A stretch of DNA of 64,000 bases from an uncultured Geobacteraceae bacterium (GTDB lineage: Bacteria > Desulfobacterota > Desulfuromonadia > Geobacterales > Pseudopelobacteraceae). The position numbers and the translations under genes were made by a program. Of this stretch, positions 12,247-62,309 are shown piece by piece (within the stretch, counting starts at the first letter, position 1; every line of letters begins with the position of its first letter). The stretch is from NCBI GenBank assembly GCA_903939115.1, contig CAJAFV010000058.1, positions 1-64,000 on the forward strand, read 5' to 3'. Below the pieces are notes generated by a model. That model was not told where the DNA came from. It searched no databases and saw only the letters and a list, made by a program, of their open reading frames with translations.

Positions 12247-12251
12247 GGATT

Positions 12252-14477: not shown

Positions 14478-14526
14478 AGTTTTAACAACCGGAATGTCCG
14501 TAAATATTCAAGAGCCGAAATTCAAA

Positions 14527-14643
14527 GGCAATAGAACGCGGATAACATCTGATTTAGCGGATTAGCGCCGATAAAGCCAAACCTGAAATAGTTTTTAAAT
14601 CAGCGTGAATCAGTCCAATCCGCGTCATCCGCGTTCTATTGCC
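14527..14643. repeat. Palindromic repeat element between pstS and pstC
   Basis: GGCAATAGAACGCGGAT (14527-14543) and its exact complement (14627-14643) form a 17-base perfect stem. The inner sequence continues as imperfect copies around GCGGATTAGCG and AATCCGCGTCATCC. It begins eight bases after the pstS stop. It is a different family from the CACAGAG elements further down the operon. Confidence 0.85.
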
Positions 14644-14650
14644 GCTTCAT

Positions 14651-36369: not shown

Positions 36370-36402
36370 CGAAACATAGCTGTAACATTGGCATGATATA
36401 CC
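36370..36402 (+). promoter_or_regulatory. Pho box of the PHP-glycosyltransferase/ppk operon
   Basis: CGAAACA-TAGC-TGTAACA (36370-36387), nine bases, then TATACC (36397-36402). The predicted transcript would start only a few bases before the ATG at 36411, so the message may be almost leaderless; no ribosome-binding site is visible there. It is divergent from the Pho box at 36266-36283. Confidence 0.65.
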
Positions 36403-36410
36403 TTCGTGCT

Positions 36411-38861: not shown

Positions 38862-38864
38862 CTA

Positions 38865-41042
38865 ATGTCGACTGTTGCACCACCTAAAACACGCCGAATA
38901 AAAAAAACAGACAGCGAAATCAATCTTTCCGACCCTTCCTGGTACCTTAACCGCGAATTAACCTGGCTGGAGTTCAATCGACGTGTGCTGCATGAAGCCG
39001 AAGACGAGCGCACTCCGCTGCTGGAGCGCCTCAAATTCATTGCCATAGTCAGTGCCAATCTTGATGAATTTTTCATGAAACGTATTGGCGGACTAAAACA
39101 ACTGGTCGCTGCTGAATTACGCGACGTAAGCCTTGATGGGCTTACGCCACTCCAGCAGATTCAGGAATGCTATAATTTTATTCGAATTCTGGAGGGTAGA
39201 AAATACGAGCTGTTGCATCAGGTTTTAGGGTTACTCAAGGAGCAGGGAATTGTTATTTCCAGGGTGAAAGATCTGACGCCACGCGAGAGGAAAAAACTCC
39301 GAAACCATTTCACAACCAATATTTACCCGTTACTGACTCCCCAGTCTATCGATCCGGCGCATCCGTTCCCCTTTATCTCAAACCTGTCAATCAACCTGCT
39401 GCTTACCTTGAACAGTGCTTCAGGTCCTGACATGCAGTTTGCCCGCGTCAAGGTTCCGGTAGGAGTAAGTACATCACGGTTCATACCTGTTCCCGGCAGA
39501 CCAGATGGTTTCGTCCGACTCGAAGACCTGCTCTGCTGTAATTTGGACATGCTTTTCCCTGGTATGGAGATTGTGCGCTGTGACCTCTTTCGTGTTACCC
39601 GCAATGCCAACACTGAACTGGACGAAGAGGAAGCGGACGATCTTGTTGAAATGATCGAAACCGAATTAAAAGAACGCCGCTTTGCACCTATTGTGAGAAT
39701 GCAGGTGCTTGAAGGCATGCCGGCATTTCAACGGGGCAGACTGGCTGCGGAACTGAATATCAATGAAAATGACGATGTTTTTGTTGTTCCGGAAATGTTG
39801 GCCATGCGCGACCTGTTCGAGTTGTCGAAGCTTGACTATCCACATCTGCACGACCCGACGCATCATCCGGTTGTACATCCGCTACTGGAAACAGAGCGTA
39901 ATATTTTTCATATTATCCGTGATGCCGGCTCAATACTGCTTCAGCACCCCTATGAATCATTTTCATCTTCTGTCGAGCGTTTTTTGCGTGATGCCGCAGC
40001 AGATCCCAAGGTTCACGGCATCAAAATGACGCTCTATCGCACATCAAGCCAGAGTCGCATCATAGACGCACTTCTGCTGGCGGCTCAAAACGGGAAACAG
40101 GTGGCGGTAGTAGTTGAACTAAAAGCACGTTTCGACGAGGCCACCAACCTCCGTCTGGCTGAACTGATGGAGCGGGCAGGTATTCACGTAACCTACGGGG
40201 TGGTTGGACTAAAGACCCATTGCAAGGTGATCATGATTGTTCGCCAGGACTTCAATGCTCTGAGACGATATGTCCATATAGGTACGGGTAATTATCACGC
40301 CGATACTGCCCGTATCTATACCGATATCGGCCTGTTAAGCTGCAGTGAGGCTCTCGGCCATGATGTGACAGAACTGTTCAATTACCTGACGACCGGATTC
40401 AAGCCACGAAGGAAATATACTCGACTGTTGACCGCCCCACGATTCCTCAAACAGGCGCTGTTAGCTAAAATCGAACGAGAGGCTAAACTACACTCTGTGC
40501 ATGGTGGTGGCCTGATTCAATTCAAAATAAATGCCCTGGAAGACGGGGATATTGTCAAGGCACTTTACCTGGCGTCCCAGGCAGGGGTTACGATTGATCT
40601 TATAGTGCGCGATACCTGCCGTCTTCGTCCCGGCATACGCGGAGTATCAGAGACAATCCGCGTAATCAGTATTGTCGGGCGTTTTCTCGAGCATTCCCGA
40701 ATTTACTACTTCAGGAACAGCGGAGAAGAAGAATATTTTATCTCCTCTGCTGACGCGATGAAGCGTAATCTTGAAGCACGCGTTGAGGTGCTCTGCCCGG
40801 TAGAGACTCCCGCACTGGCCAGTGAAATTCGAGCCATCCTTGATGTTCATTTGCGAGATGCCCGCTCCGCCTGGGATATGCATCCGGACGGGAGTTATGT
40901 CCAGCGAATACCTGGAGAAACTGAAGTTTCAGGTGGCAGTCATTGTCAATTGAGCGAGTATGCGGAAAGACGTGTTGAATTGTACCGGAAACGAAGGAAA
41001 AAAAATAAACAGCTACGTCTGGATCGGTCTGATTCCGAGTAG
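38865..41042 (+). CDS. ppk: Polyphosphate kinase 1
   Basis: A 725-aa PPK1 that reversibly polymerises the ATP gamma-phosphate into polyphosphate. The N-terminal signature is WYLNRELTWLEFNRRVLHEA. The two catalytic histidines lie in YVHIGTGNYH and FLEHSRIYYF. Other family blocks are SIDPAHPFPFISNLS and QHPYESFSSSVERFLR. Its ribosome-binding site (GGAG) lies in the 3' end of the preceding gene. It is co-transcribed with the PHP-glycosyltransferase from a Pho-box promoter. A second full-length paralogue lies at 60078-62309. Confidence 0.97.
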   Translation: MSTVAPPKTRRIKKTDSEINLSDPSWYLNRELTWLEFNRRVLHEAEDERTPLLERLKFIAIVSANLDEFFMKRIGGLKQLVAAELRDVSLDGLTPLQQIQECYNFIRILEGRKYELLHQVLGLLKEQGIVISRVKDLTPRERKKLRNHFTTNIYPLLTPQSIDPAHPFPFISNLSINLLLTLNSASGPDMQFARVKVPVGVSTSRFIPVPGRPDGFVRLEDLLCCNLDMLFPGMEIVRCDLFRVTRNANTELDEEEADDLVEMIETELKERRFAPIVRMQVLEGMPAFQRGRLAAELNINENDDVFVVPEMLAMRDLFELSKLDYPHLHDPTHHPVVHPLLETERNIFHIIRDAGSILLQHPYESFSSSVERFLRDAAADPKVHGIKMTLYRTSSQSRIIDALLLAAQNGKQVAVVVELKARFDEATNLRLAELMERAGIHVTYGVVGLKTHCKVIMIVRQDFNALRRYVHIGTGNYHADTARIYTDIGLLSCSEALGHDVTELFNYLTTGFKPRRKYTRLLTAPRFLKQALLAKIEREAKLHSVHGGGLIQFKINALEDGDIVKALYLASQAGVTIDLIVRDTCRLRPGIRGVSETIRVISIVGRFLEHSRIYYFRNSGEEEYFISSADAMKRNLEARVEVLCPVETPALASEIRAILDVHLRDARSAWDMHPDGSYVQRIPGETEVSGGSHCQLSEYAERRVELYRKRRKKNKQLRLDRSDSE

Positions 41043-44432: not shown

Positions 44433-45962
44433 TCAAGAAGTAGTAAACACAGCCACACAGCCGAACGTTTTTTCAAAAAGGTCCTTCTTGGCATTGGCAC
44501 CGAAAATCTCCACCGAAACGTCTTCCGCAGCAACCAGGTTGATCGTAACAGTTGTGCCGCCAAACTGACAGTCAGTACTCTGAACTAAGCCATTCCTGCG
44601 CCGGTCGAGTCCGTCAGCCAGGCGCAGAATGCCGCCAAGACGGGCAACTGTCACCTGATCCTTTTCCTTCAGGCTCTGGAAAGCGATATGTTTTCGTTTG
44701 GGGATCGACTTGCGATGGTAACGGGCAATCTGTGCGATCAGTTCTCTCTCGCGCGGGGAAAAGCCAAACAGGTCGGCATGACGGATGAGGTGATACGAAT
44801 GTTTATGGTGACTGTTATAGCTTATGAAATAGCCGCTGTCGTGGAGAATGGCTGCCGCCTCAAGAAGTTTTCTCTCTATCGGCTTTAAACTGAATGGTAA
44901 AACCAGGGCATCAAAAATAGTCAGAGCCGTACCGGCAACGTGCGTAGCATGCTGAACATCAACGTGGCATGAGAGTGCAAACTCAATTATGGCATCCCGC
45001 CACGAAGGTGGGGTGCTAGCTTCCGTCGTAAGCCCAAGCCGCTTCATTGCCCTGATGAGGAGGCCCTCGCGGATTCCCCGTTCGTTAATAAGCACTCGGT
45101 TGGCTTCAAAAAAGCGCATCAGTTCATCAATCATAACCACGCCGGCCACAATGATATCGGCACGGTCCTGATTAAGTCCCGGAACACTGCAGCGCCCTTT
45201 CAAATCCCTGTGGATCAGCATGGCCAGCAGATGAACAACTTCAGCATGAAGTACTTCTGACCCATGTATGGACACGTAGTTTTCCTTGCGCATCTGCATG
45301 GCCATGCAACCAAGGGCTGTTAATGTCCCACCGGAGCCAATCAGGGAATCAACGGATATTTTCTTGCCGGTGAAGGTGTTTTTGAGGCTTCCCCGGATAT
45401 AACCCCGGAGTTTTCGTAGCTCTCCCTCTGAAATCGGATCGTTTTTTAGAAAACGATCCGTCATGACAACAGCACCCAGGTCGAGGGAATAATATTCTTC
45501 CACATGGTTTCCATACGCCGTGACGATTTCGACGCTCCCTCCGCCGATATCAATCATGGCATAGCGTTTTCCATACATGTCGAAGTTTGCCAGCGAAGAG
45601 GCCGCCGTCAATTCAGCTTCTTCTTCTCCGGAAATGATTCTGATCTCATGTCCGAGCTCTTTTGAGAGTGTTGCAATAAGCTCTTTACCATTGGCTGCTG
45701 TTCTAACAGCGCTGGTGGCAACAGCTTCGACCGCCTCAACATTAAGGCCGTACAGTAGTTTTTGAAAACGCCGTATCGCCTCAATGGCGCGGTTCGACGC
45801 TTCCTCGGAGATTACTCCGGTCATCGCTAACCGCTCCCCAAGGCGCACGGTGGCCTTCTCATCATCCAGTATCTTGAACTTGCCGTCTTTTGAGGCTTCG
45901 GCAATGATACAGCGAATGGAATTGGAACCAATATCAATAGCGGCGATGCGTGATTTCTTCAT
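44433..45962 (-). CDS. Exopolyphosphatase/pppGpp phosphatase (Ppx/GppA) with C-terminal HD domain
   Basis: A 509-aa enzyme that releases phosphate from the ends of polyphosphate, or hydrolyses pppGpp. The ASKHA phosphatase part has AAIDIGSNSIRCII at the N-terminus and MIDIGGGSVEIV near 135. The C-terminal HD-type domain has AAILHDSGYF and SYNSHHKHSYHLI near 375. The ATG used follows AAGAGGG; 19 further upstream codons are open but overlap the preceding gene. It is the third gene of an operon with an MGDG-synthase-like transferase and a membrane protein. Polyphosphatase versus guanosine phosphatase activity cannot be told from sequence, but the setting favours polyphosphate. Confidence 0.9.
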   Translation of the reverse strand: MKKSRIAAIDIGSNSIRCIIAEASKDGKFKILDDEKATVRLGERLAMTGVISEEASNRAIEAIRRFQKLLYGLNVEAVEAVATSAVRTAANGKELIATLSKELGHEIRIISGEEEAELTAASSLANFDMYGKRYAMIDIGGGSVEIVTAYGNHVEEYYSLDLGAVVMTDRFLKNDPISEGELRKLRGYIRGSLKNTFTGKKISVDSLIGSGGTLTALGCMAMQMRKENYVSIHGSEVLHAEVVHLLAMLIHRDLKGRCSVPGLNQDRADIIVAGVVMIDELMRFFEANRVLINERGIREGLLIRAMKRLGLTTEASTPPSWRDAIIEFALSCHVDVQHATHVAGTALTIFDALVLPFSLKPIERKLLEAAAILHDSGYFISYNSHHKHSYHLIRHADLFGFSPRERELIAQIARYHRKSIPKRKHIAFQSLKEKDQVTVARLGGILRLADGLDRRRNGLVQSTDCQFGGTTVTINLVAAEDVSVEIFGANAKKDLFEKTFGCVAVFTTS

Positions 45963-45985
45963 GTACCCTCTTATATCAGGAATGT

Positions 45986-46558
45986 TTAGTTGTTTGAACG
46001 CGTACCCATAAAAGACCATACCAACAGCAAGCCACCCATTATCATATATGTCAGATAATCTGTCGGTACTCCCAAAAGCCAGTGTTTATGCCAGGGGATA
46101 TGGCTCTGGGAGAAGCGGGTAAGGCCGAATGCAGGATTGAGGACGAACCAGAGGAAGTCCTCTGCAATCCAGAAGACCATTAATGCAGCAATGCAGCGGG
46201 CTTCCGTTCGCCATGAGAATCTGCCCTGGACAACATGGGGCAGGTGGAAGACCAGAAACATAAATGAAAATACCCAGGCATGGTACCCTGTCATGGCACG
46301 TCCTCCCCAAAAAATATCCAGAAGCAGGTGCTTTTCAATTCTCCATGTGGGCAGAGAAGCAGCCCAACCGTTTGCCCCCTCGATCTGGATTTCTGTTTCG
46401 GCAAAAAACATACTCAGCAGCAGCACCCAAAGCAGCAGTATAATTACATGCAGCAGCCGTCTCATAAGCACATTGGAATTTGTCTGCTGCGCTTTTCTGG
46501 GGGGATATAACTTCGTTAATCCACTTATCCCGTTGATCGGGGTGAAAACGGCTTTCAT
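45986..46558 (-). CDS. Integral membrane protein of the glycosyltransferase/Ppx operon
   Basis: A 190-aa protein with about four hydrophobic segments. His and Trp residues cluster in the loops (YHAWVFSFMFLVFHLPH, SHIPWHKHWLLG). The ATG has a strong GCGGAGG site. It lies 13 bases after the transferase gene and 23 bases before ppx. Family not recognised. A membrane function linked to lipid modification is inferred from context only. Confidence 0.65.
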   Translation of the reverse strand: MKAVFTPINGISGLTKLYPPRKAQQTNSNVLMRRLLHVIILLLWVLLLSMFFAETEIQIEGANGWAASLPTWRIEKHLLLDIFWGGRAMTGYHAWVFSFMFLVFHLPHVVQGRFSWRTEARCIAALMVFWIAEDFLWFVLNPAFGLTRFSQSHIPWHKHWLLGVPTDYLTYMIMGGLLLVWSFMGTRSNN

Positions 46559-51077: not shown

Positions 51078-51320
51078 ATGAATACCATTGCTCTTGGTAC
51101 TATCATCAGGGATCGGCGAAAAGAAAAGAAAATGACCTTGGCGGATCTTTCGACTCACTGCAACGTTGGGGTTCGGTTCCTCTCTGAGCTTGAGAACGGG
51201 AAACCGACAATCGAGTTGGGTAAGGCTTTAAAAGTGATGAGTCGGCTGAATATTGAACTCACGGTCTTGCCCACCAACGAAGTTCAGAAGAACAAATACA
51301 ACACCTCTTCCAAAGCATGA
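51078..51320 (+). CDS. hipB: HipB-like antitoxin
   Basis: An 80-aa XRE-type DNA-binding protein; the helix-turn-helix covers about 20-45 (LADLSTHCNVGVRFLSELEN). It represses its own operon and neutralises HipA. An AAGGAG site precedes the ATG. The stop overlaps the HipA start by four bases (ATGA). Confidence 0.88.
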   Translation: MNTIALGTIIRDRRKEKKMTLADLSTHCNVGVRFLSELENGKPTIELGKALKVMSRLNIELTVLPTNEVQKNKYNTSSKA

Positions 51321-52549
51321 ATGCACTTCTTAAAGTATATTTCAATGAGCAACATATCGCTAATTTGTGGCTGGAAGACAAGTATTACAACTTTCAGTAC
51401 CTGACCCAGGACACTCAGCCAATCTCCTTGTCTTTGCCCGTCAGGGTGGAACCATACATACGTGACTATGCAAAACCTTACTTCGCAAATCTCTTACCTG
51501 AAGGAGAAACCCGGACTTTAGTTGAGGCAAGACTTGGGATTAGCCGGGGAGATGATTTCGAGTTATTAAAAAGGATCGGAGGAGATTGTGCCGGAGCGAT
51601 CACGCTATTTCCGGAAGATCAGGTTCCGTTTGTAACTGCAGGCTATTCAGCCCTTTCAAACTCTGAGCTGATTACGATGATAAGAGAGTTGCCGCAGGCT
51701 CCTCTTTGCGCCGGCAGAAGCAAGAGTATTAGGCTGTCATTGCCTGGTGCACAGAACAAAACTACTCTGTTCATAAAAGACGGAGTGTACTATCTCCCTG
51801 AAAACGGGGCGGCGTCTTCGCATATTCTGAAGGTGCCAATTACCAACATAGCTGGTATTACTGATACCGTACAAAACGAAACTTTTGTCATGATGCTGGC
51901 AAAAGAAGTCGGGTTAAATGTTCCGAATGTCGAAATGGTTCAAATTGGTGCTGTACCGGTTTTCGTTATCGAGCGTTATGACAGGTATTTCGATGCAAAC
52001 CGGCATCTGAGGAGAATACTGCAGGAAGATTTTTGCCAGTTATTGATGCTTGAGCCAACGATGAAGTACCAAAACACGGGGGGAGTTGGACTTATTGATT
52101 GTATCCAGAAAATTCGAGAACACAGTAGTGATATCACAACTGATACAGAGCAATTACTCAAATGGGTGGCGTACAATGTGCTGGTGGGCAATGCCGATGC
52201 TCACGTGAAGAACCTGTCCATGATTTGGAGCAGTAAAGGAATCAGGCTGGCACCGTTTTATGATATTTTGTCGACAAAGGTATACGGAGGTCACGACGAC
52301 GCTTTTGCAATGAGTATTGGCAGAGAATACAATATTGACAGACTTACTCGCACGAACTGGAAACAGTTGGCTGAGTTTTTGGATATCAATATAAAGTTGA
52401 TTGACAAGATAAATTCGTGTCTGGTTGATACGATTGTACCAACAGTAAATAAGGTGTTAGACGTGTTCGAGTCCAAATACGGCACGAATGTTACAGTAGA
52501 AAAAATGGTCCGAGATATTGGAAGCCGGACAAACCTGTTGGTTAAGTAG
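51317..52549 (+). CDS. hipA: HipA-like serine/threonine kinase toxin
   Basis: A 410-aa HipA-family kinase. The best known member phosphorylates glutamyl-tRNA synthetase and causes persistence. The couple/N-terminal part is within residues 1-100. The self-phosphorylated loop is in RLSLPGAQNKTTL near 138. The catalytic loop is VGNADAHVKNLSM (Asp and Asn near 295) and the DFG-like metal site is APFYDI near 314. All key residues are present, so it should be active. It overlaps hipB. Confidence 0.92.
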   Translation: MNALLKVYFNEQHIANLWLEDKYYNFQYLTQDTQPISLSLPVRVEPYIRDYAKPYFANLLPEGETRTLVEARLGISRGDDFELLKRIGGDCAGAITLFPEDQVPFVTAGYSALSNSELITMIRELPQAPLCAGRSKSIRLSLPGAQNKTTLFIKDGVYYLPENGAASSHILKVPITNIAGITDTVQNETFVMMLAKEVGLNVPNVEMVQIGAVPVFVIERYDRYFDANRHLRRILQEDFCQLLMLEPTMKYQNTGGVGLIDCIQKIREHSSDITTDTEQLLKWVAYNVLVGNADAHVKNLSMIWSSKGIRLAPFYDILSTKVYGGHDDAFAMSIGREYNIDRLTRTNWKQLAEFLDINIKLIDKINSCLVDTIVPTVNKVLDVFESKYGTNVTVEKMVRDIGSRTNLLVK

Positions 52550-53210: not shown

Positions 53211-53550
53211 TTTCCCCCCTACGTAATCAAGATAACGCCACACTACATTTTGAACGCACTTTTTTCAAGAATTTCCAGTGCACCCATCTGACTCTATTTA
53301 CGACGGAAGAGTCAATTCACTTCCGGCCCAATCGCTTCGAGTCTTGGTAGAGTTGTACTGAACTGTTCCCGACTGACATAAATAACAGTTTACTGTGCAC
53401 CTATGACTGGCCTGCCGACTGGATAACCATCAATTATGAAAGGAATATTGACTTCGTCTGTCAGAATGGTGAATCAGCATTTTGCTGTTGTTAATTAAAA
53501 GCATTTCCTGTAGCAATCTATCTATAAATGGGGCAAGGAGGCAATGGACT
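53211..53550. other. Intergenic region between divergent ihfA and the second phoU
   Basis: It should hold both promoters. A small palindrome ACAGTTTACTGT lies near 53386. TGTCAGA-ATGG-TGAATCA near 53459 is a poor Pho-like repeat. No coding remnant was recognised. Confidence 0.4.
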
Positions 53551-54315
53551 ATGCTGGGTGAACATATCACTAAAATATTCGACAAGGATTTAGACAAATT
53601 GCGGCAAAACATCCTTATCATGGGCGGCAACGTTGAGCAGATGATCTCAGATTCGATTAAAGCCTTAATTAACCGTGAATCTGATCTGGCTCGAAAGGTT
53701 ATTGCCAAGGATCATGAAGTTAATTATCTCGAGGTGATGATTGATGAGTTCTGCCTGGAAATGCTGGCCATGCGACAGCCCGTTGGTCGGGATTTGAGAT
53801 ATATAACACTCGCTCTCAAAATAGTGACCGACTTGGAGCGGATTGGCGACAAATGCGCCAACATTGCTAAACGAGCCTGTAAGCTAAATAAAGAACCGCC
53901 GTTGAATGTCAACGCGGACATCCCCCGACTGGCCGAAAATGCTTCAATAATGCTTAAGGAAGCGCTGGACTCTTATGTCAAACAGGACGCTGACTTAGCA
54001 AGTAAAGTATGTGCAGATGACCGTTATGTAGATGAGATTTACAATCTTATTCAGAAGGAACTATTGAATGTTATGCTGGAGGACTCAAAAGCGATTGAAC
54101 GCGTGCTGCTGCTTCAGTATGTAGCAAAGTCGCTGGAACGAATTGCAGACCATGCGACCAACATTGCAGAGATGGTGATATTCATGGTCAAAGGCAAGGA
54201 CATCAGGCACCTGAAGGCCCCTAATGGTGGACAAGACATAACAGGAAATTTTACGCACTCTAACGGCGATATAGTTACCGTTGACACGTTCACCGGTGGC
54301 ACGACCAACCCTTAG
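53551..54315 (+). CDS. PhoU-like protein, second copy with C-terminal tail
   Basis: A 254-aa PhoU paralogue with both metal-binding repeats (LKIVTDLERIGDKCANI and VAKSLERIADHATNIAEM). Unlike the copy at 8888-9559 it has a further 30-residue polar tail after MVIFMVKGKDIRH. It stands alone, away from the pst genes, next to the polyphosphate-related operon. AAGGAGG lies ten bases before the ATG. It may report phosphate status to a partner other than Pst, or link Pst to polyphosphate; this is inference. Confidence 0.92.
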   Translation: MLGEHITKIFDKDLDKLRQNILIMGGNVEQMISDSIKALINRESDLARKVIAKDHEVNYLEVMIDEFCLEMLAMRQPVGRDLRYITLALKIVTDLERIGDKCANIAKRACKLNKEPPLNVNADIPRLAENASIMLKEALDSYVKQDADLASKVCADDRYVDEIYNLIQKELLNVMLEDSKAIERVLLLQYVAKSLERIADHATNIAEMVIFMVKGKDIRHLKAPNGGQDITGNFTHSNGDIVTVDTFTGGTTNP

Positions 54316-54330: not shown

Positions 54331-55182
54331 TCAGACGAGCAGGCGTGATGCCAAGCGCCGGATACAGTCAGAGAGTTCCGGGTCGCTGATCATCTTCAGA
54401 GCTTTGTTAACGGGCAGCACTGCACGTTTCCGCCATTCCATCTCAGGCCACTTTTTCAGCACAGTCGTTACTTTAAGCGGATAAATATAAAGGGTCTTCT
54501 CACCTTTACGATGGCAGAACGCACGGAGACCGGGGGCGCAACTTCCGATGACTCCGGCCTCCTCCATAGCCTCCATTACGGCGACGTCCTGACGGGGCAT
54601 ATCCGGTTCCGGCTGCCCCTTGGGTATAATCCAGCGGGATTGGGCCGCATTAGTCACAATGACAAGATATAAACGTCCACCACGAAATAGATAAGGCAAC
54701 GCCCCAATCTGGTGCTCCTCTGCAGGCCCGTCAGGAATCCCGTGAAGTGCCAGGGAGAGATTTTTGTAGGCAGCCACGCCCGTAACTTCCTGTCCAAAGT
54801 AGTCCGGTATCTTAAAGCTCTCGCTCTCCTTCACTGAAGAAAACTCAACTTCTGCAACAAGTAGTGGTTCAAGGTCACCCAAATAGCGATCCACCTCAAT
54901 CTGGAATGCTCCATAATTGACCAGCGAACGGACCTTCTCCAGCCTCCGCCCATCTGTTGATGGCCATAGCGCGAGAAACTGCTGCGGTGAGATCTCGATT
55001 TCAGTCTCACGTCGTGTCAGGCCCGAACCTTCTTTAACAGTAAGAAAATGGTTATTGCCGTACTGGCGAATACGCACTTCCATATGCTCGTCATGAGCAA
55101 GGTACCCCTGCTGGATTAACGCCCCGCCTGGCAATTCAGCCGGAAGCGTCTTCACTAAAAACTTTCGTTCGATTTCAATCAT
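54331..55182 (-). CDS. CYTH domain fused to a NUDIX hydrolase domain
   Basis: A 283-aa fusion. Residues 1-150 are a CYTH triphosphate-tunnel domain with the ExExK motif (Glu3, Glu5, Lys7 in MIEIERKFL) and charged strand residues (EVRIRQYG, LTVKEGSGLTRRETEIEI). Residues about 160-283 are a NUDIX domain of DIPP type, with a box near 192-214 (GQPEPDMPRQ, then AMEEAGV) in which the usual Arg is Met. CYTH proteins bind tripolyphosphate and long polyphosphate, and some DIPP-type NUDIX enzymes cut polyphosphate internally. It overlaps the ParA-like gene by four bases. Confidence 0.85.
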   Translation of the reverse strand: MIEIERKFLVKTLPAELPGGALIQQGYLAHDEHMEVRIRQYGNNHFLTVKEGSGLTRRETEIEISPQQFLALWPSTDGRRLEKVRSLVNYGAFQIEVDRYLGDLEPLLVAEVEFSSVKESESFKIPDYFGQEVTGVAAYKNLSLALHGIPDGPAEEHQIGALPYLFRGGRLYLVIVTNAAQSRWIIPKGQPEPDMPRQDVAVMEAMEEAGVIGSCAPGLRAFCHRKGEKTLYIYPLKVTTVLKKWPEMEWRKRAVLPVNKALKMISDPELSDCIRRLASRLLV

Positions 55183-55931
55183 GGCTGTGGATTCAGCGTG
55201 GAGAAGATTTCGTCACAGAGAGCCCGATAGGCCCGAGCCGCCTCGCACGCGTGAGAATACGCCAGTAGCGGCATTCTGTGCAGGCCCATTTTTTCAACAT
55301 CGGCAGAAAACGGGATCACCGTTGTTAAAAAGCCTGGATATGATTCCGGAAGTTCGCCCATAATCTCCCGATGCATTTTATTCCTCTTCTGCACCATGGA
55401 GAAAAACGGGCGAAGCGCCTTGCATGGTAACTCTTCATCCTTGAAAAAACAGGTCAACTGCTCAAAAGTTCTCCGAGAAAGCACCGTCGGTACAACCGGC
55501 ACCAGGATAGCATCAGATGCCCGGAAAACGTTTTCCGAGAGGAGTGTTATGTTCGGCGGGCAATCCAGAATAATTACATCGTAATCGGGCCTGAATTCTT
55601 CTAATACCTTCCTGAACTGTTTTCGGCTCTTGGCCATGCCATCGAGCAGAATATCGAAATGCCGGTAGCCAAGGTTTGAGGGGATGATATCAAGTCCCGG
55701 AAAATCGGACTCCCGGATATTCCTGCGAAGTCCCTCAGCCATTGACCGGGCGTCACGCATCTTGAACTTTTCCGCGCTGCCTACGCGGAAATAAAAGGAA
55801 GCCGCCCCCTGCGGGTCCAGGTCGATAAGGAGGGTGCGGTGTCCGGCCTCACGAAACGCGAACGCCAGATTTACCGCAAGTGCCGTTTTTCCAACGCCAC
55901 CCTTGATGCTGTAGGAAGAGATGATTTTCAT
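55179..55931 (-). CDS. ParA/MinD-type partition ATPase
   Basis: A 250-aa ATPase with the deviant Walker A KGGVGKT (signature Lys10, Lys15), Walker A' LLIDLDPQG and Walker B VIILDCPP. ParA-type proteins form dimers on the nucleoid with ATP and position plasmids, chromosomes or cell organelles such as carboxysomes. No parB, origin or septum gene is nearby. Instead the gene lies between CHAD and CYTH-NUDIX genes in one tight operon, with a 12-base gap on one side and a 4-base overlap on the other. A role in distributing a polyphosphate body is my inference. Confidence 0.88.
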   Translation of the reverse strand: MKIISSYSIKGGVGKTALAVNLAFAFREAGHRTLLIDLDPQGAASFYFRVGSAEKFKMRDARSMAEGLRRNIRESDFPGLDIIPSNLGYRHFDILLDGMAKSRKQFRKVLEEFRPDYDVIILDCPPNITLLSENVFRASDAILVPVVPTVLSRRTFEQLTCFFKDEELPCKALRPFFSMVQKRNKMHREIMGELPESYPGFLTTVIPFSADVEKMGLHRMPLLAYSHACEAARAYRALCDEIFSTLNPQP

Positions 55932-55943
55932 AGTTTGGTCTGC

Positions 55944-57536
55944 CTATTGTGCACTCTTTGCTGAGACGGAATCCGAAAGTTTGAAGGTGTTCTTGAAGGC
56001 TGCAGCGGTTGAACCACCACAGAACTCTCCCAATGACTGCTTGATGAGACCACGCGTCTGCTGCTGCCGATGATACAGGATTGAGACGAGTCCTCCCACG
56101 CCCATGGCAACATCCGGGCCCGATTTCTTATGTTCCCAATAGTCCAGTAGCGATTTTTGCTGCACAGAAGCATCATTGAAATCGCCAAGTCGGCCCTGCA
56201 GCCGTCGAAGCATTTTTAGCATCTGCGCCCCTTCTTCCCCGGGAATGAGTTCACTGAAGAACTCCATGAGGTAGCGCAGTTTTTTGCACTCGATGCGGAG
56301 TTGGTGCACAACTTCATCAGGCGTCTCTGTCCCGATTCCCGCCGCGATCTCGCGGATCTTGCGATACCGTTTATAGATACACCGGAAAACCAGCGGTCCC
56401 ACGGGGATATCGGCTGAAGACGAAGGTTTGTGTGCTGTTTCCTCGGAAAAATAGACTGCCATCTTACGGAGTAGCTTGCGGTTTGAGTGTGCACGGATTT
56501 TTAATGTGGTGTCCTGTACCTCAATGTCTCTTTCTGCTGAAAAATCCTCAAACATCCCCTCCAGTGCCGGCCGCAATTCAGGAGGCAGCAATCCGAGGTA
56601 TTCGTCACGAGCCAAAAGATATACATCCAGGTCACGCAGCCGGTTGGTCTGCCGTGCGAGATCTCCGAGAATTTTCCGCATTCGCCCGGTTCCCTCCGCT
56701 GGGTATACGTCTTTAACCAGACTTAGTACCGAGCGAATCTTCCGGATACAAATCCGGTAATCATGGAGGAATTCCGTATCAAGGTCGTTCAGAATCCCCG
56801 GTATATTGCTAACGGCAATCTCCAGCATCGTGCGCACAATCCGCCCTATGGCTTCACGGGCAGGGGTTTCCTTAGTCAGGCCAAAAGAGGGGCGCAAGGT
56901 GTATTTCTGTGGTTCATTGTTCGCGTGTCGCAGCAAAACATCTACAGGGCCATCTCCGGAACTCTTGGCACCACGCTGCGTGAGGTACTCCACCACGCGT
57001 GCGGCTTCCGCTTCGTAGCCGCGCAAAGGCAGCACCTGACAGGTACGGAGCAGTTTTTCCTCACCCTCTCTCCCCGCTGAAACCGAAGACAACTCAAGGC
57101 GGCACACTATCTTTTCCGCCTCATTGCGCAACTCTCCCAGGCGCAGGTGGAATGTCCCCTCAACAACCATCGCAAGGCTTCTCAGTCCGAGTGTTCGCTC
57201 CAGTGCCGTCCGCATCGACACCGTCTCAAAATCTCCCCAGAACCTCCGTCTGTCCCCCGTTTCTTCTTCACATATTACCGCCCCTAACCAGCCCTCTTCG
57301 CGGGAGCAGAGGTGGTACACACCTCCATAACTGTACAGGACATACCCACCAAACCAGAGTCCCCATTCGAACGTGTCCCAAAATGCCAGCGTCCTTGATT
57401 CCTGCTCGTGAAATACCACGTGCCGCTCTTCTTGCAGGCTCGACACTTTGAGGTCATTAGGGAGTACCAAACGGATACCCTCATTTATTTTCAGCAAAGA
57501 TCCCACAGCGTAACCTCTGATTACGTTCTTATCCAA
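55944..57536 (-). CDS. CHAD-domain protein with degenerate CYTH-like N-terminus
   Basis: A protein of about 530 aa. The C-terminal CHAD domain (about 215-515) is a helical, Arg/His/Lys-rich polyphosphate-binding fold: HDYRICIRKIRSVL, VHQLRIECKKLRYLMEF and the RLQGRLGDFND helix. CHAD proteins bind the surface of polyphosphate granules in other bacteria. The N-terminal 200 residues are beta-rich and may be a degenerate CYTH domain (RLELSSV, then QVLPLRGYEAEAARV), but the ExExK motif is lost. The first start-like codon is a TTG without a ribosome-binding site; GTG at 57506, behind GAGG, is an alternative start. Confidence 0.85.
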   Translation of the reverse strand: MDKNVIRGYAVGSLLKINEGIRLVLPNDLKVSSLQEERHVVFHEQESRTLAFWDTFEWGLWFGGYVLYSYGGVYHLCSREEGWLGAVICEEETGDRRRFWGDFETVSMRTALERTLGLRSLAMVVEGTFHLRLGELRNEAEKIVCRLELSSVSAGREGEEKLLRTCQVLPLRGYEAEAARVVEYLTQRGAKSSGDGPVDVLLRHANNEPQKYTLRPSFGLTKETPAREAIGRIVRTMLEIAVSNIPGILNDLDTEFLHDYRICIRKIRSVLSLVKDVYPAEGTGRMRKILGDLARQTNRLRDLDVYLLARDEYLGLLPPELRPALEGMFEDFSAERDIEVQDTTLKIRAHSNRKLLRKMAVYFSEETAHKPSSSADIPVGPLVFRCIYKRYRKIREIAAGIGTETPDEVVHQLRIECKKLRYLMEFFSELIPGEEGAQMLKMLRRLQGRLGDFNDASVQQKSLLDYWEHKKSGPDVAMGVGGLVSILYHRQQQTRGLIKQSLGEFCGGSTAAAFKNTFKLSDSVSAKSAQ

Positions 57537-57559
57537 CTTCGTAGACCATATTGGCTCTG

Positions 57560-57910
57560 TTATTTTATTTCTTGTCTCAGTTTTTCCTCTACTGCCAGCA
57601 CAATATATTCATTCATGCTGACACCTGCCTCGGCGGCCTCTTTCTTGATACTCTTGCGCACAGACTTTTTTATGCTGACAAGAAACTTGGTCATCTTGTC
57701 CTCTTTCGGAGCCTTTTGAGGTTTCGGTTCGACCGCCTCCTTGACACTCTTTTCTGCTTTTACTTTTTTTGCTTTGGGCGCTGCAACAGGTGTCTCATCA
57801 ACCGGCTTTATTTTTTTTATTTTTTTCACGGCTGCTTTCTTTTCAACGGCCTGTTCGTTGACAGTTTCTTTCACTGCGTTTTCGCTGGGTTTTGCTTTTT
57901 CTTTCTTCAT
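57560..57910 (-). CDS. Lysine-rich protein with histone H1-like N-terminus and ribbon-helix-helix-like C-terminus
   Basis: A 116-aa protein. Residues 1-75 are a Lys/Ala/Pro/Glu-rich disordered arm (KKAAVKKIKKIKP, PKAKKVKAEK). Residues about 76-116 (LVSIKKSVRKSIKKEAAEAG, then VSMNEYIVLAVEEKL) look like the strand-helix-helix of MetJ/Arc-type DNA-binding proteins. Such a protein could bind the nucleoid and polyphosphate, like AlgP or PhaF-type granule proteins; this is inference. A strong AAAAGGAGAGG site precedes the ATG. It is the first gene of the CHAD/ParA/CYTH-NUDIX operon. Confidence 0.7.
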   Translation of the reverse strand: MKKEKAKPSENAVKETVNEQAVEKKAAVKKIKKIKPVDETPVAAPKAKKVKAEKSVKEAVEPKPQKAPKEDKMTKFLVSIKKSVRKSIKKEAAEAGVSMNEYIVLAVEEKLRQEIK

Positions 57911-58028
57911 AGCCCTCTCCTTTTGATCAGAATTGTTAGAGTTGGTAGTGCGTTAACAAACCCTTGTTTGCAGAAACCTCCCGATGAGTTCTGCAAAAAA
58001 AGTGCTCCGCAACCGGCTCTCTTAAAAT

Positions 58029-58075
58029 GTTATACTTATAATAACTATTATAGTCAATATAACTATAATAGTTAT
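58029..58075 (-). promoter_or_regulatory. Promoter of the polyphosphate operon with a 14-base palindrome over the -35 box
   Basis: TTGACT (58057-58052), 17 bases, TATAAC (58034-58029) is a strong sigma-70 promoter on the minus strand. ATAACTATTATAGT (58041-58054) and its perfect complement (58062-58075) flank a 7-base loop and cover the -35 box and spacer. The layout is that of a repressor operator; the ribbon-helix-helix-like first gene product is an obvious candidate. A further hairpin (57967-57975 with 57989-57997) lies in the leader. Confidence 0.6.
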
Positions 58076-58124
58076 AACATTATAACGTGATCAAACGAGA
58101 CATTACTTAATTTTATAACCAACG

Positions 58125-60053
58125 TTATTCAACAAGGTAGGTATATCCCATAAGCATCCTGTCCAATAGCTCTACGAAATGGCTACTTTCTTCAATGGTT
58201 ATCTTTTTACTGACAATATTTTTCTCCAAATTATCCCTAACATGCTTGAGAATCTCCGACCCCTTGTATTGTACGTATTTGAGGGTATCCTGAGTTGCGT
58301 CTCCATTTATCACTGTGTCAATCATGTACCCGGTCTTATTATCAAAAGTTATGTGTACGGCATTGGTGTCCCCAAACAGGTTATGCAGATCACCCAGAAT
58401 CTCCTGGTAGGCGCCTATCAGGAAAAAACCGATATAGTAGTCATCATCTTTACTGATTTTGTGCAGCGGTAGATACTTGGTACGACCATTCGTGCCGACA
58501 AAACTTGTGATCTCTCCATCAGAGTCGCACGTAATATCGGCTATTGACGCCATTACATCGGGTTTCTGATCGAGACGCTGAATAGGCATGATCGGGAAAA
58601 GCTGGTCGATTGCCCAGGAGTCCGGGATTGACTGAAACAGGGAAAAATTGGCAAAATATGTCTGGCGTAAATGCAGCTTGAAGTTCTGCATTTCTTCGGG
58701 AATCGGTTTAAACTTCTCCAGCAGGCCGTTGATCTTCACAATTATCTTGGCGTAGAGCCACTCAGCAATAGCGCGGTCCTTAAGAGTTAGGTACCCCAGA
58801 TTGAACAGACTGACCGCTTCGCTGATCAACTGCATTGTGTCGTGGTAATCCTCACGAAGCGAATATCGATCAATACTTTTGTAGATATCAAGCAGCTTTT
58901 TTACCGTAGGTGCCACCTTTTCAGATTGATTCAGCATTTCTTCGAAATCAGGCATCAGGCTTAGTGTATCGGTATTGAGAACATTGGTTACCATTACCGA
59001 GTAGTGGGCAACCGTAGCCCGGCCCGATTCTGAAATGATGTTGGGACACTGTACTCCGGCCTCATCGCAGATGCTCTTGATCTGGTAGATGACGTCATTG
59101 GCGTACTCTGCGATAGTGTAGTTGACGCTAGAGAAATAACTGGATTTGGAACCGTCATAGTCAACGCCCAGGCCGCCGCCGATATCGAGAAATTCTATGC
59201 CGACTCCCAACTTTCTCATCTCGGTGTAGACGCGGGCCGCTTCGATCAGAGCAGTTTTTATTTTGTCGATCTTGGTGATCTGGCTACCGATGTGCGAGTG
59301 CATCAGTTTGACGCACTCCACCATGCCCTGTTCCTCCAGCATGCGGATGGCGGCGATAATTTCGGACATACGCAGGCCGAACTTGGCATCCTCGCCGCCG
59401 GAGGTGGCCCATTTGCCGGTACCTTTGGAGGATAATTTTACACGGATCCCCAGTTTGGGCATGATGCCGGTTTTTTTAGACAACTCGATGATCTTTTCCA
59501 ACTCGAACAACTTTTCCACCACCAGCGTGATGTCATAGCCGATTTTAGTGGCGTAAAGCACTGTCTCAATATATTCGCTATCTTTATAACCGTTGCAGAT
59601 AATCGGCAGTCCCTTACCGGTAGAAAAGGAGATACCCGCGATAAGTTCAGGCTTTGATCCCACCTCGAGCCCGATATTATATCGTTTTCCGTAGCGTACG
59701 ATTGCTTCAACAACCTGACGTTGCTGGTTAACCTTAATCGGGTAAAATGTCTGATATTTTGCCGGGTAGTCATTTTCTGCTATTGCGTGTTTGAATACCT
59801 GGTAAATTGACGCTATACGCCGCTGCAGGACATCCATGAACCGTAGCAGAATTGGTGGCTTTATCTTGCGCTTGATCAGATCATCAACCAGAACACGCAA
59901 ATCGATTGATTGCTTGGCGTTTGAGGAGGGGTGGACGCACATGTTACCGTTCTTATTGATCGAAAAGAGATCATCGCCCCAATTATCGAGATTATATGTC
60001 CTGGCGGAATCTTTAATTGACCAGCGTTTGCTGGCCGGGCTCTGAAGGCTCAT
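58125..60053 (-). CDS. speA: Biosynthetic arginine decarboxylase
   Basis: A 642-aa PLP enzyme of alanine-racemase fold type III that turns arginine into agmatine, the first step of polyamine synthesis. The PLP lysine is in YPIKVNQQRQ near 103. Other motifs are EVGSKPEL, HIGSQ, GGGLGVDYDGSKSS and SESGRATVAHY. The length is right for SpeA. AAAGGAA precedes the ATG. It lies between the second ppk and the CHAD operon on the same strand, 24 bases after ppk. A downstream polyamine gene at 20.1-20.4 kb is broken. Confidence 0.95.
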   Translation of the reverse strand: MSLQSPASKRWSIKDSARTYNLDNWGDDLFSINKNGNMCVHPSSNAKQSIDLRVLVDDLIKRKIKPPILLRFMDVLQRRIASIYQVFKHAIAENDYPAKYQTFYPIKVNQQRQVVEAIVRYGKRYNIGLEVGSKPELIAGISFSTGKGLPIICNGYKDSEYIETVLYATKIGYDITLVVEKLFELEKIIELSKKTGIMPKLGIRVKLSSKGTGKWATSGGEDAKFGLRMSEIIAAIRMLEEQGMVECVKLMHSHIGSQITKIDKIKTALIEAARVYTEMRKLGVGIEFLDIGGGLGVDYDGSKSSYFSSVNYTIAEYANDVIYQIKSICDEAGVQCPNIISESGRATVAHYSVMVTNVLNTDTLSLMPDFEEMLNQSEKVAPTVKKLLDIYKSIDRYSLREDYHDTMQLISEAVSLFNLGYLTLKDRAIAEWLYAKIIVKINGLLEKFKPIPEEMQNFKLHLRQTYFANFSLFQSIPDSWAIDQLFPIMPIQRLDQKPDVMASIADITCDSDGEITSFVGTNGRTKYLPLHKISKDDDYYIGFFLIGAYQEILGDLHNLFGDTNAVHITFDNKTGYMIDTVINGDATQDTLKYVQYKGSEILKHVRDNLEKNIVSKKITIEESSHFVELLDRMLMGYTYLVE

Positions 60054-60077: not shown

Positions 60078-62309
60078 TCACGCTTTATAGCGTGCTGAAT
60101 ATTTTTCCTTTGCTGCCGCCTTCTGTCGTTTTTCCGCTTGCTCTATCATCAACTGATGAGTACCGCATGGTTTTTCATCATTCGAGCATGAGCGTTGAAT
60201 ATAGCTGCCGTCAGACTTCATGTCCCAGGCTGCACAGCGGTCGTTGAGCTGTGTATTGAAAATCATACGCAACTCCTGCATAAGTTCAGGCGCCTCCACC
60301 GGGCAGAAGATCTCAACTCTCGCCTCCAGATTGCGCTTCATAGAATCCGCTGACGACAGATAATAGACTTCTTTGCCGCCGTTTCGGAAATAATATAACC
60401 GGGCATGTTCGAGGAACCGCCCGACAATGCTCACGACACGAATATTTCCTGAAAGCCCAGGAATACCAGGCCTGATCCGGCACGTATCACGAACTATCAA
60501 ATCGACTTTGACTCCAGCCTGTGATGCTCGATAAAGAGCACGAACAACATCACCGTCCTCAAGCGCATTCATCTTGAACTGGATCAGGCCGCCTCCACCA
60601 TTTTGCAAACTATGGGCAATTTCACGCTCAATGCCCTGAAGCAACGTATTTTTAAGGAGCCGGGGCGCCGGGGACAACTTTTTGAAATTGCGATTGTTCA
60701 TGAAGCCGGTAGTCAGGTAATTGAAGAGTTCACTGATATCCTGTCCGATGGCTTCATCGCACGTCAGCAGACCGATGTCGCTGTATATGCGGGCAGTTTC
60801 TGCGTTGTAGTTACCGGTGCCTATATGCAGATAACGCCTCAACCCGTTATAATCCTGGCGCACGACCATGATGACTTTACAGTGGGTTTTTAGACCGATC
60901 ACGCCGTAGGTGACATGAATACCAACCTGCTCCATCCGTTCGGCGAGCTGAATGTTAGCAGCCTCGTCAAACCTCGCTTTCAGCTCAATCACCACAGCAA
61001 CCTGTTTTCCTTTCTGGGCAGCAAGGATCAGATAATCGATAACACTGCTTTTACTCCCGGTACGATAAAGGGTCATCTTGATGCCGCGCACTTTGGGATC
61101 AGTTGCCGCTTCACGTAAAAACCGCTCGACCGAGGAGGTGAAGGATTCGTAGGGATGTTGCAACAGGATTGATCCTGTATCACGGATAATATGAAAAATG
61201 TTTCGCGGGGAGAGCAGGAGAGGATGATCAATGGGTGAATAATGCGGGTCATGCAGCCGTACGTAATCGAGAGCTGCCAGCTCGAACAGGTCGCGCATGG
61301 CCAGCATTCCGTTCACTTCAAAAACATCGTTGTCTTCATCCAACTCTAGTTCCGCAGCCAATCGTCCACGGTGGAGCGGAACCATTCCCTGGGCTATCTC
61401 CAACCGCACGATGGGAGCAAACTTGCGCTCTTTCAATTCAGACTCGATCATGGCCATCAAATCATCGGCCTGATCTTCGTCTTTCTCAGTATTGGAATTG
61501 CGGGTAACGCGAAACAATTCACAGGTAACAATGCTCATGCCGGGAAACAGTATATCCAGATTGTGTATAATCAACTCTTCTACCGGAATAAAATGATCTC
61601 CCTTGCCAACTCGTATGAAACGAGGTGTCCCCAAGCCGATAGGAACTTTTATACGTGCCACTGTAACGTCAATACTCTTGGGATATTTCAGGGTGACAAG
61701 CAGGTTGAGCGACAGGTTGGAGACAAATGGGAACGGGTGGGCCGGATCGATAGACTGTGGCGTTAACAGTGGAAAGACACTCGAATAGAAATATTCTCTC
61801 AGATATATCTTCTCTCGAGAGGTCAGAGTGGCATAGCTCTCGATAACGATACCCTTTTGGGACAGCAGTGCCAGAACATTTCCCAGCACCTCTTTTTTGT
61901 GAGTATTGATGTCACGTATGACTTGATGGCATTCGCGGACCTGCTGAAGTGGGGTCCTGCCGTCAAGCGTCAGTTCGCTCATCCCTGCACCTATCTGCTG
62001 TTTGAAGCCACCTATGCGTTTCATGAAGAATGAGTCCAGATTGGCACTAACAATGGCAATAAATTTGAGCCGCTCCAGAAGTGGAGTGCGAGTTTCTTCG
62101 GCTTCGTGCAGAATCCGGCGGTTGAACTCAAGCCAGGTCAATTCACGGTTGAGAAACCATTGGCAGTCGTCGAGATCAAGACTCGGAGTATTCAGAACTA
62201 ACGGCGGCTTATTGGCAGATTCTTCCTTGCCGACATCCTTACCTTGTCCGGAAGGAGTTTTGTTTTGTTTGATAGTGTTTATCCTACTGGAAACGGTTGA
62301 AGTGGTCAT
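60078..62309 (-). CDS. ppk: Polyphosphate kinase 1, second copy
   Basis: A 743-aa PPK1 paralogue of the enzyme at 38865-41042, collinear over its length (WFLNRELTWLEFNRRILHEA, SIDPAHPFPFVSNLS). Both catalytic histidines are present in YLHIGTGNYN and FLEHARLYYF. It differs in a 45-residue polar N-terminal extension and in its regulation: no convincing Pho box was found upstream. The ribosome-binding site is weak (GGAG). Having two copies suggests separate housekeeping and starvation roles. Confidence 0.96.
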   Translation of the reverse strand: MTTSTVSSRINTIKQNKTPSGQGKDVGKEESANKPPLVLNTPSLDLDDCQWFLNRELTWLEFNRRILHEAEETRTPLLERLKFIAIVSANLDSFFMKRIGGFKQQIGAGMSELTLDGRTPLQQVRECHQVIRDINTHKKEVLGNVLALLSQKGIVIESYATLTSREKIYLREYFYSSVFPLLTPQSIDPAHPFPFVSNLSLNLLVTLKYPKSIDVTVARIKVPIGLGTPRFIRVGKGDHFIPVEELIIHNLDILFPGMSIVTCELFRVTRNSNTEKDEDQADDLMAMIESELKERKFAPIVRLEIAQGMVPLHRGRLAAELELDEDNDVFEVNGMLAMRDLFELAALDYVRLHDPHYSPIDHPLLLSPRNIFHIIRDTGSILLQHPYESFTSSVERFLREAATDPKVRGIKMTLYRTGSKSSVIDYLILAAQKGKQVAVVIELKARFDEAANIQLAERMEQVGIHVTYGVIGLKTHCKVIMVVRQDYNGLRRYLHIGTGNYNAETARIYSDIGLLTCDEAIGQDISELFNYLTTGFMNNRNFKKLSPAPRLLKNTLLQGIEREIAHSLQNGGGGLIQFKMNALEDGDVVRALYRASQAGVKVDLIVRDTCRIRPGIPGLSGNIRVVSIVGRFLEHARLYYFRNGGKEVYYLSSADSMKRNLEARVEIFCPVEAPELMQELRMIFNTQLNDRCAAWDMKSDGSYIQRSCSNDEKPCGTHQLMIEQAEKRQKAAAKEKYSARYKA

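Follow-up and report, generated by a model that had tools for sequence, protein, structure and literature searches.

A ParA-family ATPase paired with a long CHAD protein: a candidate positioning system for polyphosphate granules

Why is a ParA-family ATPase encoded among proteins of polyphosphate (polyP) metabolism? The question is raised by an operon-like set of four minus-strand genes at positions 54331-57910 of the window, a 64,000-nucleotide stretch of a contig from an uncultured Geobacteraceae bacterium. The reading that we consider probable, from sequence comparison, is that these genes encode an ATP-driven system for positioning (or inheritance) of polyP granules, in which a CHAD protein would serve as the cargo adaptor.

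The operon and its phosphate neighbourhood

Open reading frames and Pfam confirmed the four genes of the preliminary description. In order of transcription they encode KRHH, a small lysine-rich protein (57560-57910; assigned from Pfam HicB and Arc matches, composition and database relatives); a long CHAD protein of 520 aa from a GTG start (55944-57506; Pfam CHAD, solved chains, contact residues); a ParA-family ATPase of 250 aa (55179-55931; ParA-superfamily models, motif conservation); and a tripolyphosphatase-type CYTH domain fused to a DIPP-like NUDIX domain (54331-55182; Pfam, solved relatives). The close packing described earlier holds for the 4-base ParA/CYTH overlap and the 12-base CHAD/ParA gap, while the 23-base KRHH/CHAD gap exists only if CHAD begins at TTG 57536. 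GTG 57506, which leaves a gap of 53, is the better supported start, since it agrees with the alignment, has AGAGG in front and yields a protein with a 100% identical 520-aa database copy. The single strong promoter once placed before the operon does not stand out by consensus (five promoter-like sites in the region versus 3.6 expected).

The CYTH-NUDIX protein has a Pfam CYTH match and a NUDIX match below its cut-off; the nearest solved relatives of the NUDIX part are DIPP1 (best E 1.3e-9). The N-terminal ExExK motif of CYTH/TTM proteins reads EIERK in the window, as it does in 19 of 21 other aligned rows (some of them duplicates), the exceptions being L062, with EIERR, and L087, a NUDIX-type match without the motif. 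Three glutamates and the glycines of the Nudix box (GX5EX7REUXEEXGU) are kept in the window, with M replacing both the R and the first E. In Paracoccus, G169 and G212, CYTH and NUDIX are encoded by separate genes whose order is the same.

The operon sits in a phosphate/polyP island. The phoU gene said to flank it (53482-54315, plus strand; PhoU in Pfam, TIGR02135; true start probably further in) does lie just downstream and convergent, but the ppk gene on the other side, ppk1 (60078-62309, minus), is merely near, with the arginine decarboxylase gene speA (58125-60053, minus) intervening. Further off are a second ppk1 copy (38865-41042, plus), a Ppx/GppA exopolyphosphatase-type gene (44433-46019, minus), and pst-type phosphate-uptake genes (9569-15616, minus) named by arrangement and sequence, with ABC ATPase, permease and PBP_like_2 matches in a Pfam scan without the permease at 10524-12137.

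Pairing of ParA with CHAD across genomes

Loci were selected by ParA similarity alone, and protein database searches (best 120 rows each) served only as a source of lengths, names and domain labels. CHAD lies directly upstream of ParA on the same strand in 66 of 80 named loci, from nine phyla as labelled, and overlaps it by 4 bases in 34 of these 66. Thirteen of the remaining 14 genomes carry a long CHAD elsewhere; the other (L091) has ParA and no long CHAD. The commonest labelled neighbours of ParA are CHAD (65 loci), CYTH (40), PPK1 (13) and PPX (11); the third commonest neighbour cluster (20 loci, at scattered positions and on both strands) looks unrelated to polyP. In Paracoccus, pstAB-phoU-phoB is followed by three hypothetical genes and these by CHAD-ParA-CYTH-NUDIX-CYTH.

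A survey of 198 genomes of the phylum used profile A2 to find long CHAD, instead of the N-domain of one sequence, which as a query had found only five genomes. Long CHAD was present in nine genomes, this ParA in nine and both in eight, adjacent in all eight; the exceptions are G052 (long CHAD without this ParA) and G073 (the ParA without a CHAD match). None of the seven genomes with only short CHAD-domain matches has this ParA: the ATPase accompanies long CHADs, not short ones. Mapped over the tree, the pairing needs six label changes versus 25.9 in shuffles. Distances among the ParAs track those among the CHADs (r 0.86 for 58 pairs, with no species-tree correction), and 24 of 55 splits are common to both. 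Because adjacency is conserved and the genes co-occur across genomes, chance fails to explain the arrangement. A single 703-aa frame in G013 was rejected as a CHAD-ParA fusion since the frame spans a stretch of N that marks a scaffold gap.

Conservation of ParA beside CHAD and CYTH, as anticipated by the preliminary description, extends to the orthologues of this ParA but not to a second clade, group 2 (41-45% identical, ten proteins in nine relatives), which has no adjacent CHAD. In G008, G013, G019 and G020 a small lysine-tailed protein is encoded downstream of the group-2 ParA, with no match to KRHH (phmmer, E 1e-3). The proposed link of ParA, CHAD and CYTH is strongly supported by their conserved adjacency and by their presence together in genomes where they lie apart, while the lysine-rich gene was seen only in Geobacterales loci; the widespread pair is CHAD-ParA. 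An McdB-like adaptor gene was sought among recurring neighbour clusters (ORFs of at least 90 aa), where no small partner stood out; the candidate cargo adaptor for ParA is likely the long CHAD protein itself. Since the pairing of this ATPase with a polyP protein recurs in many distantly related bacteria, it may represent an undescribed machine for spacing polyP granules or dividing them between cells.

The ATPase, its putative adaptor and rival mechanisms

The ParA has a deviant Walker A motif with the signature lysine (KGGVGKT) and matches AAA_31 and other ParA-superfamily models of Pfam; its best solved matches are the ParA and Soj partition proteins. K10, K15, D37, D39 and D123 are intact in 91 of 91 members, and position 16 is T in 90 and S in one, so that KGGxGKT/S and the Walker A' and B aspartates of the ParA/MinD family are all present. 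E133, IPTxLSxRT, H187 and ExMGxxR are near-invariant in the subfamily. Of the classic DNA-binding surface only a part is conserved: the position that we take to be equivalent to Soj R189 is R in 66 of 91 members, and the presumed R218 equivalent is mostly D/E, not R. A phage origin was rejected (the six listed of 169 phage matches are 29-30% identical, and all 169 fall below 60%).

Partial conservation of the DNA-contact positions would also suit an ATPase that does not position anything and acts as an ATP switch, regulating PPK1, CYTH and NUDIX through CHAD, for example by loading these enzymes onto polyP as ATP supply dictates. The superfamily has non-positional members of the NifH and NUBPL/Mrp types (weaker matches here), and the commonest labelled neighbours are CHAD, CYTH, PPK1 and PPX. 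The signature-lysine Walker A of all 91 members and the best solved matches, both to partition proteins, argue against such a switch, which we regard as unlikely.

Less likely still is ParA/MinD-type positioning by capture of granules at a pole or membrane rather than on the nucleoid. BcsQ, which has a polar role, is a comparable superfamily match of this ParA. A short C-terminal tail (median 6, maximum 15 residues) follows residue 243, so there is no obvious MinD-like membrane helix. Polar polyP has been reported in Agrobacterium and Corynebacterium (PMC13052382), but the same review describes the nucleoid as the polyP scaffold in P. aeruginosa, and bacterial polyP granules are elsewhere placed in the nucleoid region (PMC6537752).

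The long CHAD protein consists of an N-terminal domain of ~220 aa and a CHAD domain (Pfam CHAD 6.1e-47). Its nearest solved chains are 3e0s and 6qv7 (E about 1.5e-51), the latter of which we infer, from construct limits and residue pattern, to be CtCHAD. Six CtCHAD residues identified by mutation as polyP-binding (H253, R256, R260, R296, R418 and Y419; PMC6537752) are invariant in 56 of 56 long CHAD members. In a secondary CtCHAD patch the positions of K386, K389, K390, R438 and K441 are mostly K/R, and the position of R385 holds a Y in the window and an R in just five of the 56. The protein thus resembles the CHAD phosins (CtCHAD, Ralstonia CHAD, YgiF) in its core polyP contacts, with CtCHAD the closest structure, and differs from them in its long form, its conserved N-terminal domain and its ParA partner; YgiF has a CYTH triphosphatase domain in place of the N-terminal domain.

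That the N-domain is itself a degenerate CYTH is only a guess. At full length, long CHAD aligns collinearly with CYTH-CHAD proteins through both domains, at 99.4-99.9% probability against a three-protein set and against each of two single proteins and at 1.5% against YgiF by itself. It is the CHAD half, however, that accounts for the score, and the N-domain profile alone matched none of 31 CYTH proteins (hhalign). No ExExK motif was found in the N-domain by eye. Nudix_N matches four of the 56 members (best E 3.4e-4), and CYTH was absent among the 25 listed of 54 Pfam families matching any member at E <= 1.

In the positioning mechanism that we favour, the CHAD domain would coat polyP and the extra N-terminal domain would be the likely docking face for ParA, which would put CHAD in the role of ParB or McdB. 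ParA with ATP would bind the nucleoid and granule-bound CHAD would stimulate its release; the granule would track the ParA gradient, which would keep granules apart and divide them between daughters. CYTH and NUDIX would trim the polymer. The tethering, spacing and trimming suggested by the preliminary description are retained as predictions. Whether the scheme extends to all ~nine phyla, as an ancient machine independent of AlgP in which a dedicated ParA subfamily moves polyP granules along the nucleoid, with long CHAD (perhaps a degenerate CYTH-CHAD fusion) as adaptor, seems to us evenly balanced.

The logic would be the Brownian ratchet of McdA-McdB, which positions carboxysomes and where a ParA-family ATPase is likewise linked genetically to a single organelle and to a proposed adaptor; here the cargo would be polyP and the adaptor a CHAD protein, and the signature lysine, absent from S. 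elongatus McdA (PMC6328274), is retained in this ParA. AlgP, which spaces polyP granules in Pseudomonas aeruginosa, and PhaF/PhaM likewise place polyP (or PHB) granules via the nucleoid; the passages on them name no ATPase and list ATP dependence as unknown (PMC13052382, PMC9239181). The 2025 review treats ATP expenditure on polyP granule placement as an open question, and its relevant sections name no spacing ATPase (PMC13052382). The statement that no ParA-based polyP system has been described needs amending: a folD-ppk-parA-CHAD cluster in Acidithiobacillus, with the same gene pairing, is published as highly conserved, with ParA read as plasmid/chromosome partition and copper or cAMP discussed (PMC10892726; PMC6416229). 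A granule-positioning proposal for CHAD-parA was not found there, in the parts concerned, or elsewhere in the literature searched. The pair supplies a named, testable candidate for a polyP-spacing ATPase, across phyla; culturable carriers include Paracoccus marcusii, Methylomonas lenta and Desulfobacter latus. It also yields a prediction of which CHAD proteins are partners of this ParA. Should the proposal hold, ParA-type ATPases would have polyP as a further cargo besides carboxysomes and plasmids, and the so far unexplained domain at the N-terminus of long CHAD proteins would have a role.

KRHH and the 9-bp repeat array

KRHH (116 aa) has a K/A/P-rich N-terminal arm, with lysine at 20 of the first 68 positions, and a C-terminal half that looks like a ribbon-helix-helix DNA-binding domain (HicB, E 1.1e-4, over the Pfam cut-off; Arc, 1.4e-3, below it). 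Upstream, at 58028-58081 on the minus strand, an array of 9-bp repeats (RYTATWATA), a candidate KRHH operator, overlies the KRHH promoter found by eye (TTGACT -35, TATAAC -10). Its four units give 34 of 36 matches, where 30 shuffles reach at most 26. The array is present at nine of nine distinct KRHH genes versus none of 56 upstream stretches of KRHH-less CHAD genes. KRHH is probably an autoregulator: in Geobacterales it would bind the repeats that overlie its promoter. The lysine-rich arm may, in addition, contact ParA, DNA or polyP; this arm and the CHAD N-domain are the two candidates for a partner that would stimulate the ParA ATPase.

ParF/ParG-type systems combine a ParA, a small ribbon-helix-helix protein whose arm is basic, and repeats at the promoter. 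KRHH, ParA and the array resemble such a type Ib cassette (TP228), and G024 has KRHH and ParA as an intact pair, with the array but no CHAD, as would be expected of a plasmid or chromosome partition cassette that merely adjoins polyP genes. We consider this very improbable. CHAD-ParA spans phyla without KRHH or array, both of which are confined to Geobacterales among 98 loci, and the array core (at most one mismatch) has no second copy in its own genome. The six best plasmid matches of ParA are all CHAD-adjacent ParAs of Paracoccus; the next three are 40-43% identical, one of them, in Marinobacter, with no CHAD annotated within 5 kb, another at its record's end and the third in an unannotated record. 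Unlike ParF-ParG, where a short ParA gene is followed directly by the ribbon-helix-helix gene, the order here is KRHH-CHAD-ParA, reversed and with CHAD between the two; the ParA has 250 aa versus 206 (4dzz), and the cargo genes are those of polyP.

The KRHH arm also recalls the lysine/alanine/proline-rich AlgP and PhaF/PhaM proteins; unlike them, KRHH carries a ribbon-helix-helix domain and lacks a KPAA repeat array. KRHH has 134 database relatives, and some of the best 120 are labelled HicB-family.

The operon and its surroundings

The four minus-strand genes of the preliminary description were found at 54331..57910, encoding KRHH (a 116-aa protein with a lysine-rich arm and a ribbon-helix-helix part), a long CHAD protein (an N-terminal domain of about 220 residues followed by the CHAD domain), a ParA-family ATPase and a CYTH-NUDIX protein. 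The tight spacing agrees with that description apart from the CHAD start, which is more likely the GTG at 57506, 53 bases after KRHH; the supposedly strong single promoter has only a weak consensus. Of the two genes said to flank the operon, phoU is convergent with it, but speA separates it from ppk1. The window is a phosphate/polyphosphate (polyP) island, to which pst-type genes, a sensor-kinase gene, another copy of ppk1 and a gene of the Ppx/GppA type belong. A glycosyltransferase family-4 gene immediately precedes the second ppk1 (36393-41042), and the same pair occurs near a ParA of a second clade (group 2) in locus L043. Inspection by eye suggests a HipB/HipA-like pair at 51078-52549, with an HTH protein of 80 aa and a kinase-like protein of 410 aa.

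Pairing of ParA and CHAD genes

Among 39 related genomes, nine have close ParA orthologues (the source genome and eight at 81-95% identity). CHAD adjoins the orthologue in eight of the nine, as does CYTH-NUDIX, with a scaffold gap of N intervening in G013. At one site the ninth genome, G024, keeps KRHH and ParA as an intact pair together with the repeat array, this ParA being 95% identical to the window's, and at another (L161:5161-7173) a CHAD-ParA-CYTH-NUDIX stretch whose ParA retains 60 residues after an in-frame internal deletion; the arrangement is possibly an artefact of the metagenome bin. Near the intact pair (L032:7737-8884) are phosphatidylserine-decarboxylase, Lgt-like and Zn-phospholipase-C-like genes.

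ParA homologues lying away from CHAD and CYTH had been named beforehand as evidence against the proposed system. The group-2 ParAs (41-45% identity; ten genes in nine genomes) have no adjacent CHAD and so are of this kind, while the orthologues are not. In G010 and G003 about 4 kb or less separates a group-2 gene from ppk; G003, G007, G019 and G031 have a CHAD gene on the contig of the group-2 gene, at a distance of ~7-18 kb. Among group-2 loci L041, L043, L045, L046, L048 and L049, four have a small lysine-tailed protein (95-137 aa) encoded downstream, and L043 and L045 have a CorA-type transporter upstream; several have a gene set that resembles the lipid-type set of L032 by gene lengths alone.

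The far survey was a ParA-profile scan of named genomes, from which the best 80 of 580 confirmed candidates, many from metagenome bins, were picked on ParA similarity alone. In 66 of these 80, CHAD is immediately upstream of ParA on the same strand, with a 4-base overlap in 34. By NCBI label, pairing within these best 80 was found in Thermodesulfobacteriota (22/22), Pseudomonadota (19/32), Verrucomicrobiota (7/7), Myxococcota (4/4, a doubtful label because all four are titled merely 'Deltaproteobacteria bacterium'), Calditrichota (3/3), Lentisphaerota (1/2), the single loci of Acidobacteriota, Planctomycetota and Chlorobiota, and all seven loci without a phylum, two of them KSB1. Twelve of the 14 unpaired loci are from Methylococcales. 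A long CHAD is encoded elsewhere in 13 of these 14 genomes, all but a Lentisphaeria bin; this search recovered the long CHADs of both CHAD-paired control genomes. CHAD-separated ParA genes of Methylococcales (L090, L093, L101, L111, L113, L119-L121, L128) have genes of glycogen-phosphorylase type or for MgtE magnesium transporters nearby, as assigned by clustering and by Pfam on one member of each; the CHAD-paired L108 also has a glycogen-phosphorylase-type gene. On plasmid pMAQU02 of Marinobacter nauticus (L178), a 40%-identical ParA and a gene for acetoacetyl-CoA reductase (PHB) are ~3.6 kb apart, perhaps indicating another cargo.

We also took 198 genomes of the phylum without selection by ParA. 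The long-CHAD profile (E <= 1e-5) matched 16 genomes: in nine the match has the long form (starting at model position <=26), and in seven it is confined to the CHAD domain. Nine genomes matched the ParA profile (E <= 1e-40). Long CHAD and ParA occur together in eight genomes, with adjacent coordinates in all eight, and ParA was found in none of the seven CHAD-domain-only genomes. The exceptions are G052, with long CHAD and no ParA, and G073, with ParA beside a PAS protein and no CHAD match. The order CHAD-ParA-CYTH-NUDIX recurs with CYTH and NUDIX as separate genes in G212, in G169 (after ppk, the NUDIX protein also carrying a histidine-phosphatase domain) and on an annotated plasmid of Paracoccus marcusii, where pstAB-phoU-phoB and then three hypothetical genes come first; the Geobacterales fusion is thus one version of a set that is more widely conserved. 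In all six Paracoccus plasmid matches CHAD is next to ParA by coordinates.

Clustering of 692 neighbouring ORFs (90 aa or longer) from the 80 survey loci gave CHAD at 65 loci, CYTH at 40, PPK1 at 13 and a PPX-type protein at 11 (one member confirmed by Pfam). The remaining clusters cover seven loci or fewer, save one at 20, in scattered positions on both strands and apparently without polyP connection. In five gammaproteobacterial loci (L065-L068, L074) a recurring protein, 386-390 aa in three and in shorter frames in two, is encoded two genes after ParA on the same strand, with CYTH in between; the single member tested (L066:5724-6884) matches the Pfam Card1-like endonuclease and Card1 CARF families, which would place an effector of CRISPR-ancillary type next to a polyP operon.

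A rapidly built tree of 97 ParAs sets the family apart from six Soj controls (ParA partition proteins) with 100% support; many of its inner branches are poorly supported. The label 'CHAD beside ParA' changes six times on the tree versus 25.9 in shuffles, and CHAD-less genes fall within branches containing paired ones. Uncorrected for the species tree, ParA distances are correlated with those of CHAD (r 0.86 over 58 pairs; none of 1000 permutations as high) and the two trees have 24 of 55 splits in common.

Protein parts and possible roles

The catalytic motifs are intact in all 91 ParAs. A family signature (E133, P148, L151, S152, T155, H187, E213, M215 and G216, each in at least 99% of the 91, and R219 in 85) is absent from the six Soj controls. 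Of the Soj DNA-contact positions, placed in the alignment by Soj residue numbering, one is kept in 66 of 91 and the other is not kept.

The nearest solved chains to the window CHAD are 3e0s and 6qv7, which from construct limits and residues we take to be the crystallised CtCHAD. Six core polyP contacts, tested by mutation according to the available text of PMC6537752, are invariant in 56 of 56 CHADs. The additional N-terminal residues, about 220, include conserved DTFDW, KTV and PLRGY stretches and have no common Pfam family among those listed (Nudix_N in 4/56). ParA goes with long and not short CHAD, which makes this domain the leading candidate for the ParA-docking site. The CYTH part carries ExExK and is nearest to NE1496; the NUDIX part is nearest to DIPP1, with a partly altered Nudix box.

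The evidence points to ParA and CHAD as a functional unit tied to polyP metabolism. Judged by the action of characterised ParA-type ATPases, the unit would have a positioning role, of which there may be a polar or membrane version; it may instead be a metabolic switch, and a plain partition cassette is an unlikely reading of the operon. In the available parts of PMC10892726 and PMC6416229, parA of Acidithiobacillus is beside CHAD and ppk and is given no granule role, and that of PMC13052382 leaves the energy need for polyP localisation an open question; AlgP is described in the accessible text of PMC9239181. No paper joining ParA and CHAD in granule positioning was found in full-text literature that mostly excludes subscription papers.

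KRHH and its repeat array

KRHH is present in 11 of 98 loci, all from Geobacterales by title or kinship, representing eight distinct genes, or nine with the window. All nine have 9-bp units (RYTATWATA) upstream. Over four units the array scores 30-35 of 36 in 10 of 12 KRHH rows (duplicates included), 30 dinucleotide shuffles per row reaching <=28; the consensus was derived from the same loci, so these scores show specificity rather than independent discovery. The upstream scores of L051 and L056 are just 21 and 18 because the predicted ORF start is too early; the array lies just inside it, scoring 33 and 29 (the shuffle control covered upstream stretches alone). None of 56 upstream stretches of CHAD genes without KRHH, a few of them duplicates, reaches 26, no further stretch in the 1,462,338 bases of the 98 loci scores 30 or more, and, when at most one mismatch is allowed, the core sequence was not found elsewhere in the source genome.

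Short repeats at their own promoters are common targets of ribbon-helix-helix proteins, and the plain reading is therefore that KRHH may autoregulate through the array. Speculatively, its arm might contact ParA, DNA or polyP. The few database relatives with organism names are from Desulfuromonadales or Deltaproteobacteria, with one labelled Pedobacter. By gene order the window KRHH has no HicA-type toxin beside it, its neighbours being speA and CHAD; some of its relatives are labelled HicB-family antitoxin or HicB RNase-H-like in source databases.
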